This document shows positions 11,839 through 14,467 of a stretch of DNA of 45,321 bases, piece after piece. Positions within the stretch are counted from its first letter, which is position 1. Each line of letters begins with the position of its first letter. Source of the DNA: Chthoniobacter flavus (lineage in GTDB: Bacteria; Verrucomicrobiota; Verrucomicrobiia; Chthoniobacterales; JACTMZ01). Where the stretch lies: positions 1-45,321 of the forward strand of contig CAMBUL010000013.1 of assembly GCA_945871065.1 (NCBI GenBank), in the 5' to 3' direction. The position numbers and the translations under genes are program-made. The notes below the pieces were generated by a model. It was not told the origin of the DNA, did not search any database, and saw only the letters and a program-made list of their open reading frames with translations.

Positions 11839-13470
11839 TCAATGACCGCCACCGCCCATGGCGAGTTCACCGGGTTCGGTCCGGTCTTCCTTGAGGAACG
11901 CCCAGAGGGCCGCGGAGATGGCGAGAGAGATGGCGCAGATGATAAAAGTGACCGATTTGTCGGCTGCAGCGCCGATGACTGTGCCGATGGCCACGCTGAC
12001 GATGATCTGGGGAATGACGACCGACAGGTTGAAGATGCCCATGAAAGTACCCATGCGGGCTTTATCCACGCTGTCGCTCATGATGGCAAAGGGCAGGCTG
12101 ACCACGGAGGCCCAACCGATGCCGACAATCGCCATCAGCCCGTAGATCGTGGGTGCGGTTTTACCGAATAGAATGATCCCGGCATAGCCGAGGGACATGA
12201 TGAAAATGCAAAGTGTGTGGGTGCGGACGAGGCCGACTTTCCTGGCCATGGGTTGCAGCACGGCAACGGGCAGAATGAAACCGATGACATTCATGATGAG
12301 GAAGGAAATGGAAATGACCTGCCCGAGGTAGGTCTTTTGGGTTTCGTCCAGATCGGCCGCCTCGGGAAAAAGCGCGTGCTGCGCATAAGCAAACATGAAG
12401 ACAAACATGGTTTGCACGCCGAGCCACGTAAAAGCGTGCGCCAGATAAATATGGAGAAGGCGCAGCGAGAGGGTAGCGGGATATTCATATAGTGTTCCGC
12501 TGCTCGTCTTGATGGCTGCGACTATGGGAAGAACAAGCCAGATAACGACCGCTATTGGGACCAAAGCATACCCGATGTAGGCATTGCATAAAATCACTCC
12601 AACTATAACAAATAAGGTGTAGTTGATCTGGAAGGTGAGGACCTCCTTGCCAGTTTTGTCTAAGAATGAGGATTTTTTACGAGCTGCGAGCCATAGAACC
12701 AGCGGTCCGAGCAAGTTTCCCATAGGGATTATGAGACCAGCGTAGCCCAAAAGGTGCATCCCAGTTCCTGTCCGAAGTTCGCTCCGGCTCGCTGACGCCA
12801 AATTTTGGATAGACTGATTTGCTGGAGGATCGCCTTGTATTTGCTCCTCGCCGACCTTGCCCAACTCGCGCGGTTCCTTGAGCAGGAAAGCTGGAATAAC
12901 ATTGAAGAGCACGACGAGTCCCACGCCAAAGTAGATAAGGGCGTAGTTGCCGAAGACGGCGCCGATGACGTAGGCCAGCACGCCGAACAGGCCGGAGATG
13001 GTCTGCATCCAGGTGAAGCCTTTGGTCCGGGCTTCGCCTTCGGGGGTGAGGTCGGCGATAATCGATCGGGTCGGGTTGAAACCGACGTTGATGGCCAGAT
13101 CGAGGGTGAGGGCGACGATGATGGCGGTCCAAAGGATTTGGATGCCGGAAAACTCACTCAACTGGCCGAGGAACGGCAGGGCGAGGAGCATAAGCGATGC
13201 GGCGACTCCACCGATGAGGATGAACGGGCGCCGGCGTCCGCCCCAGAACCAAACTTTGTCACTAATCAGGCCGACGATTGGTTGCGCAAGAAGGCCGGCC
13301 AGCGGTCCGGCCAGCCAGACAAGACCGACATGCTCGATGGATAAATTGTATTTGGTGCTGAGGATCCAGCTCAGCGCGGAAATCTGCACGCACAAGGCGA
13401 AGCCCATGGCCGTCGAGGGCAGGCTGAGGAGGACGTAAAACGGATTGGTCAGTTTTTCTTGATTGCTCAT
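11839..13470 (-). CDS. SLC45-type MFS sugar transporter with a Tic20/DUF4870-like domain inserted between its halves
   Basis: This inner-membrane transporter has 543 residues. The N-terminal half shows SLC45/sucrose-transporter marks: WLAGPLAGLLAQPIVGLISD near residue 52 and WGGRRRPF near 77. The C-terminal half resumes at HIYLAHAFTWLGVQTMFVFMF near 345. Usual family length is ~430-450 residues; the excess of ~100 is explained by residues ~238-337, which look like a DUF4870/Tic20-like domain: HLLGYAGLIIPMGNLLGPL, WLAARKKSSFLDKTGKEVLTFQ, then two membrane segments and YEYPATL. This part of the DNA (about 12462-12759) is also visibly less GC-rich than its flanks, which suggests a later insertion. 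The frame is intact throughout. The likely substrate is a disaccharide or another sugar taken up with protons. It lies downstream of the relE-like gene (57 nt gap) on the same strand. Confidence 0.85.
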   Translation of the reverse strand: MSNQEKLTNPFYVLLSLPSTAMGFALCVQISALSWILSTKYNLSIEHVGLVWLAGPLAGLLAQPIVGLISDKVWFWGGRRRPFILIGGVAASLMLLALPFLGQLSEFSGIQILWTAIIVALTLDLAINVGFNPTRSIIADLTPEGEARTKGFTWMQTISGLFGVLAYVIGAVFGNYALIYFGVGLVVLFNVIPAFLLKEPRELGKVGEEQIQGDPPANQSIQNLASASRSELRTGTGMHLLGYAGLIIPMGNLLGPLVLWLAARKKSSFLDKTGKEVLTFQINYTLFVIVGVILCNAYIGYALVPIAVVIWLVLPIVAAIKTSSGTLYEYPATLSLRLLHIYLAHAFTWLGVQTMFVFMFAYAQHALFPEAADLDETQKTYLGQVISISFLIMNVIGFILPVAVLQPMARKVGLVRTHTLCIFIMSLGYAGIILFGKTAPTIYGLMAIVGIGWASVVSLPFAIMSDSVDKARMGTFMGIFNLSVVIPQIIVSVAIGTVIGAAADKSVTFIICAISLAISAALWAFLKEDRTEPGELAMGGGGH

Positions 13471-13527: not shown

Positions 13528-13884
13528 CTAGGACTTTTTGCCGTCCTGCTCGATGAGTTCCCAGAACTTGTGGTTACCGGCCAGTTGCTCGTCTTCGGCC
13601 ATGGGCAGGCTGGTGCGGAACAGAAAGTCACGGATAGTATTTTTGCTCAGCACGCGACGGATAAGCAGCCCGTGGTTGTGCGGCTCGAAGTAAATGCGGT
13701 AGTCGCCCGCGCGATAACGATAAAGTGTGCGACCGTCCCGGGAAACCTTGCCGTAAAGTTTCGGATCAAGATGATCCAGACTGTCCGGCAGCACTTGGAA
13801 TTCGCCAAGGATCTCCAGTTGCAAGAGCTTGGGTAAGGCTGCCATTTCGGCCGCGCTCAAGTCGTTGAAAATTATCTGAAGCAT
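13528..13884 (-). CDS. Solitary RelE/ParE-fold protein
   Basis: This small protein of 118 residues resembles RelE-type 'cytotoxic translational repressor' proteins: a helical N-terminal part (NDLSAAEMAALPKLLQLEILGEF) and a beta core KLYGKVSRDGRTLYRYRAGDYRIYFE followed by LLIRRVLSKNTIRDFLFR. The Arg/Tyr-rich core matches the RNA-binding face of RelE. No antitoxin gene is adjacent; the neighbours are a membrane protein gene (1 nt upstream, with trpA above it) and the sugar transporter. ATG 13884 was chosen because the frame upstream of it runs back into the preceding gene. It may be a domesticated housekeeping homologue rather than a toxin. Confidence 0.75.
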   Translation of the reverse strand: MLQIIFNDLSAAEMAALPKLLQLEILGEFQVLPDSLDHLDPKLYGKVSRDGRTLYRYRAGDYRIYFEPHNHGLLIRRVLSKNTIRDFLFRTSLPMAEDEQLAGNHKFWELIEQDGKKS

Positions 13885-13885
13885 C

Positions 13886-14467
13886 TCAGGGCAGGGGATA
13901 TTGCACCGGGCTCGGGCCGAAGAAAAGGAGCGAGACGACAATGAGGAGGGCACCGTAGGCTAGCCCTATCCAGGCGACAAAACGGAAGCGTCCCGGCGGG
14001 CGCGATACCCATTGGAGCGCATCACGCATGGTGTAGGGCGCACCGATGAAGACGAGTCCGGCAACGGCCCAGCCGTAGGCGAGGACAACAAGGAGCAGAC
14101 GGCTTTGCTCGGGGCGAAGGAAAGCTGATCCCAGAAGCGGTTCGGCAGCCAAGAGGGCGAGGATACCGAGGGCGCGCACGGCGAGAAATTCCTCGGCGAA
14201 CAAAGGGACCATCACTGCAGCAGCCAGAATAGCCCCGCAGATGAGGGTGCGGTTCGGGGAGAACTCACCAAGGTCCATGGTCGCAGCCAGCCAAAAGGCC
14301 CATGCGGCTGCGAGCAGGAAGAGAGACAATCCGACCGGATAGGAGCGGGGAAACTGACGCAACTTGTCGATCGTCCAATCGGTCCGGAGCAAAGCAAAAG
14401 CGTGCGCCGCGACCAGACCAAGACCGGCCACGAGGCCGGCCGTGCGCAATGAAAAATCGTAGATCAT
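13886..14467 (-). CDS. Predicted membrane protein, function unknown
   Basis: I do not recognise the family. The 193 residues contain about six hydrophobic segments (near 8-28, 45-65, 75-95, 98-113, 122-145 and 163-185) separated by short polar loops; one loop carries TDWTIDKLRQFPRS. There is no signal-peptide cleavage site and no catalytic motif. It lies 55 nt downstream of trpA and 1 nt upstream of the RelE-like gene on the same strand, so it is probably co-transcribed with both. Confidence 0.75.
   Translation of the reverse strand: MIYDFSLRTAGLVAGLGLVAAHAFALLRTDWTIDKLRQFPRSYPVGLSLFLLAAAWAFWLAATMDLGEFSPNRTLICGAILAAAVMVPLFAEEFLAVRALGILALLAAEPLLGSAFLRPEQSRLLLVVLAYGWAVAGLVFIGAPYTMRDALQWVSRPPGRFRFVAWIGLAYGALLIVVSLLFFGPSPVQYPLP

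Follow-up and report, generated by a model that had tools for sequence, protein, structure and literature searches.

A DUF4870 membrane domain in place of the TM6-TM7 loop of a SUC/SLC45-like MFS transporter in one Chthoniobacter flavus genome

Introduction

DUF4870 (HOTT; PF09685), a small membrane domain of the Tic20 superfamily with MamF-like members, is distantly related to Tic20, a protein of chloroplast import. In its published architecture, a re-entrant helix is followed by a charged loop and a pair of membrane helices, and MamF-like superfamily members recruit membrane proteins to the magnetosome membrane (PMC11628618). Extra membrane helices are also found in MFS transporters, as NorC, EmrB (DHA2), and the POTs (HA/HB) carry two additional helices in the linker between their six-helix bundles (PMC8257674, PMC13139468, PMC4321885). 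Among the sugar/H+ symporters of the SUC/SUT and SLC45 type (TIGR01301), D152, Q50, and R163 of SUC1 are proton-site and sugar-site residues (PMC10281868). Our search of the open-licence literature found no paper on a fusion of an MFS transporter with DUF4870.

Here, we analyzed such a fusion, encoded in a window of 45,321 nucleotides (the whole stretch of DNA under study) from Chthoniobacter flavus. The window protein has the fold of the SUC/SUT and SLC45 symporters and equivalents of the three SUC1 residues, but its cytoplasmic loop holds a whole membrane domain. It resembles the 14-TM MFS transporters in the linker position predicted for its extra membrane helices; whereas theirs are a family-wide helix pair, those of the window protein belong to a recognizable, otherwise standalone domain that probably includes a re-entrant segment and occupies this position in a single species. 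The insert shares with DUF4870 a nearly whole-length profile match and the hallmark residues, whereas the other DUF4870 copies that we inspected look like standalone small proteins and the window copy lies inside a transporter.

Results

The chimeric gene occupies positions 11839 to 13470 on the minus strand (read from 13470 to 11839), where a single open frame with an ATG start encodes 543 aa without a stop or frameshift; Pfam matches and congeneric orthologues, with the same upstream context in six genomes, supported this assignment. The Pfam profile MFS_1 spanned residues 24 to 490, on either side of DUF4870. The N-terminal half (TM1-6, residues 1-205; positions 12856-13470, minus strand) and the C-terminal half (TM7-12, residues 337-543; positions 11842-12462, minus strand) were both modeled mostly with confidence by AlphaFold. 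The best NCBIfam family was TIGR01301, sucrose/proton symporter, with a score of 72.9 bits, far below the cut-off of 511 bits, which places the window protein in a distant bacterial branch; insert-free relatives likewise fell below the cut-off (80.1 and 74.7 bits). At E 0.01, SUC1 and SLC45A4 were the only sequence relatives with a solved structure, and they also ranked highest when the AlphaFold model was compared by fold (8bb6 and 9ghz, respectively). The protein is thus an MFS member of the SUC/SLC45-like branch, in agreement with the SLC45/MFS sugar transporter identity proposed in the sequence-only reading. The equivalents of SUC1 D152, Q50, and R163 (PMC10281868) in the alignment were D124 (13099-13101), Q29 (13384-13386), and R135 (13066-13068), all on the minus strand and all invariant across 52 sequences. 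Genes for alpha-amylase, GH97, and cyclomaltodextrinase are found close to some relatives of the transporter, suggesting malto-oligosaccharides as the substrate in those species, and the family may carry these sugars; the neighbors of the window transporter are gcvTHP and trpA.

Between the two halves, PF09685 matched residues 237-336 (positions 12463-12762, minus strand) over profile positions 7-106 of 107, with 95.6 bits (E 2.2e-27) against a gathering score of 25 bits, and all 14 positions invariant in a 14-sequence DUF4870 set were retained. This strong match bears out the complete DUF4870-like domain that had been read at about residues 238-337 in the TM6-TM7 loop. The hydropathy of the insert, moderate over residues 238-262 and strong over residues 283-321, was in line with the published architecture (PMC11628618). 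On this basis, residues 238-262 (12685-12759), modeled with pLDDT below 50, are predicted to form the re-entrant segment IMH1/IMH1'. Residues 263-275 (12646-12684), with a conserved GKE motif, correspond to the charged loop, predicted to be cytoplasmic in agreement with the positive-inside rule (net charge of +3 over residues 262-276). Hydropathy and the low-confidence model together predict membrane helices IMH2 at residues 276-298 (12577-12645) and IMH3 at residues 303-322 (12505-12564), all of these segments lying on the minus strand. The ATG codon of M238, which lies inside the frame, has an AGGA a few bases upstream (12757-12769, minus strand), so that a shorter internal product is conceivable.

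Structure prediction, suggested earlier as a check, was informative for the MFS core, most of which reached high confidence, but not for the insert, most of which had pLDDT below 50, with low-confidence helices at residues 254-263, 275-298, and 303-322. These low values arose because the alignment behind the model comprised the window protein and related loci only, with standalone DUF4870 sequences left out, and the model consequently does not predict the orientation and packing of the insert. The DUF4870 profile had no match among PDB sequences. The insert occupies the linker between the six-helix bundles, where extra TM helices were predicted at low confidence. With a re-entrant helix and two membrane helices (PMC11628618), both ends of DUF4870 would lie on the cytoplasmic side, and this even number of crossings would let the C-terminal MFS half keep its orientation. 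Given this architecture and the MFS halves on either side, it is very likely that the membrane topology is preserved across the insert, as had been proposed.

An orthologue of the transporter was present in 8 of the 10 other genomes of the genus, and all eight lacked the DUF4870 part, which is therefore not a segment of the normal fold. These orthologues showed 84-91% identity to the window protein in the N-terminal half and 72-94% in the C-terminal half, and their length of about 430 aa confirmed that the 543-residue chimera is longer than its family. In the codon alignment, the native TM6-TM7 loop (e.g., AVAAHDAPTEPTTGHGKTNLP, 21 residues) stood against about 131 residues in the window protein, including a linker of residues 206-236 (positions 12763-12855, minus strand; GC3, 0.45) without a clear counterpart in the orthologues, and the left junction fell at approximately residues 206-212. 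The domain insertion envisaged from the sequence was accordingly correct as to the presence of DUF4870 and the maintenance of both frames, but the native loop was replaced rather than simply added to. This replacement is confined to one genome of the genus, a single MAG. The transporter had no match in two congeners (G007, 88% complete; G009, 65% complete), and no close or intact second copy was seen in the genome of the chimera (G000), which retains a standalone DUF4870 of its own (C3:8554) with 44% identity to the insert.

In all six congener neighborhoods read (G001, G002, G003, G006, G008, and G010), the transporter was preceded by the same two genes as in the window, mostly with trpA beyond them. 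On the downstream side, G003 and G006 had gcvT next. In G010, about 3.7 kb of additional DNA (L154, 6180-9871) separated the transporter from gcvT, and the parts of G001, G002, and G008 that were read contained no gcvT. A small protein upstream of the transporter (window positions 13528-13953, minus strand), with a sub-threshold match to ParE toxins (E 0.004), was conserved in all six neighborhoods.

The DNA of the insert was less GC-rich than its surroundings, as had been noticed initially, with a GC content of 0.483 over residues 237-336 versus 0.587 and 0.568 in the two halves (GC3, 0.56 versus 0.77 and 0.73). The GC3 of residues 210-339 (0.523) was below that of all 759 comparison windows (mean, 0.736; SD, 0.058), which were 130-codon segments of the other genes in the stretch and of the two halves, overlapping and hence not independent. 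The standalone DUF4870 of the same genome had a GC3 of 0.782, indicating that amino acid composition is not the cause of this dip; the standalone DUF4870s of two lower-GC congeners had values of 0.54 and 0.63. The nearest proteins to the insert were the DUF4870s of the genus itself (about 45-53% identity), and the tree placed it beside them (97/87), on a long branch (1.69); the support fell to 91/56 in a reduced tree. The trees thus did not single out a donor. Between the window gene and G010, the transporter halves differed by a synonymous divergence of 0.27-0.64, which seems too low for the insert to have become so different since it was gained; its donor had probably diverged beforehand and would be a lost paralogue or a relative acquired horizontally. 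A plasmid search for the donor returned weak matches only, and viral contigs contained no relative by the DUF4870 profile or by the whole protein. The right junction, between YPATLSL and RLLHIY, lies a few codons short of the usual DUF4870 end (YPATIRLLQ and the stop), and short homology at this point may have helped the join.

No second DUF4870-MFS fusion was present among the best 80 of 124 relatives, which were found in 84,980 species genomes via exact short peptide patterns. DUF4870 had a match in 103 of 388 Verrucomicrobiota genomes, and the long-frame matches inspected there included no DUF4870-MFS fusion and were standalone, a piece in G284 apart. Long DUF4870 frames in G054, G002, G192, G181, G016, and G337 were rejected as fusions, since the positions of a start codon and leader made them look like read-through of standalone genes. 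The G284 piece (L164, C203), at a contig edge, is a 43-residue DUF4870-like segment reading into a frame that resembles a trypsin-like protease, either a fusion or a read-through.

While the same insertion was not recovered in relatives, two other membrane inserts, a hairpin and a DUF6677-like segment, were found in the same loop among these best 80. The two-helix hairpin (PLWGFLxYxxYA...), unnamed in Pfam, occurred in a large clade (L001-L014, L016-L018, L024, L025, L028-L031, and L171-L197) that takes in Bacteroidota, Pseudomonadota, Ignavibacteriota, and genomes of the order of L015. The model of L001 (mean pLDDT, 89) had loop helices at residues 225-242 and 249-268, with a pLDDT of 90-96 in this block. 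The DUF6677-like segment was located before AHGFSWL in three Balneolales sequences (L015, L169, and L170), with matches (E 2e-7, 1e-6, and 3e-5, respectively) covering only 34-45 of 116 profile positions. In a tree built from the MFS halves with the loop left out, the DUF6677 sequences formed one group (100/100), DUF4870 was a single tip, and the hairpin needed two changes, one of them for a long-branch outlier (L029). The family has thus repeatedly gained membrane segments in the TM6-TM7 loop. The hairpin- and DUF6677-bearing proteins are like the window protein in family and in the presence of a loop insert, but their inserts are unrelated to its DUF4870 and have separate origins on the tree.

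Discussion

Our data make it reasonably likely that the window protein is a SUC/SLC45-type symporter in which most of a standalone DUF4870 took the place of the loop, with the core kept, transport most likely retained, and an accessory membrane module gained. In one species lineage, the 21-residue cytoplasmic TM6-TM7 loop of an H+/sugar symporter would have given way to most of a DUF4870 (HOTT, Tic20-superfamily) protein, which would enter and leave the membrane from the cytoplasm. The transporter core would most likely still move sugar by alternating access, and DUF4870 might pack beside the two bundles in the manner of the extra helices of 14-TM MFS transporters. As judged from a single MAG, the kept orientation, retained transport, and accessory role are the most likely arrangement.

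It seems unlikely that the insertion broke the transporter and that we captured a recent in-frame chimera heading for decay, with DUF4870 as a passenger. The restriction of the chimera to one genome is compatible with decay, as is the terminal branch of the window protein in the tree of the halves (0.057, versus 0.008 and 0.031 in two sister orthologues); loss of function could also be tolerated, considering that its genome showed no second transporter copy and that two congeners had no transporter match. The open frame, the residues kept across 52 relatives, and the retained DUF4870 hallmark residues argue against breakage. The dN/dS of the window gene versus G010 was low (0.05 in the N-terminal half and 0.10 in the C-terminal half), close to that of G010 versus G001 (0.02 and 0.10, respectively), although low values and kept core residues are to be expected whether the protein still works or the insertion is very recent.

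Improbable, in our estimation, is a function in which DUF4870, by recruiting or stabilizing membrane proteins, turns the transporter into a complex that is regulated or bound to a partner. The recruitment of membrane proteins to the magnetosome by MamF-like members of the superfamily (PMC11628618) provides a precedent, and by this analogy one might guess that the domain recruits or stabilizes partners of the transporter; most DUF4870 proteins are uncharacterized, however, and the neighborhood (gcvTHP, trpA) has no evident partner gene. An assembly or binning chimera, in which a DUF4870 gene from a different organism was merged with that of the transporter, is very improbable. The single MAG and the deviating base composition would fit it, but it would require two separate junctions, some 390 bp from each other, each of them in frame and at a border of the loop, and the genome otherwise has no match to the insert above approximately 45% identity.

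The chimera represents an in-frame loop replacement by a complete membrane domain, for which the close insert-free orthologues provide a natural "before" state. Together, they offer a direct test of how MFS linker helices arise and whether transport changes, as well as a setting for asking what the DUF4870 domain does. A more tentative and rather doubtful generalization is that the TM6-TM7 loop serves as a general socket for unrelated small membrane domains, each of which could furnish the carrier with a new module, embedded in the membrane, for regulation or partner binding; the window protein would be a recent species-level case. Among the hairpin-bearing relatives, the loop of L031 extended to about 162 residues, with an additional alanine-rich acidic stretch.
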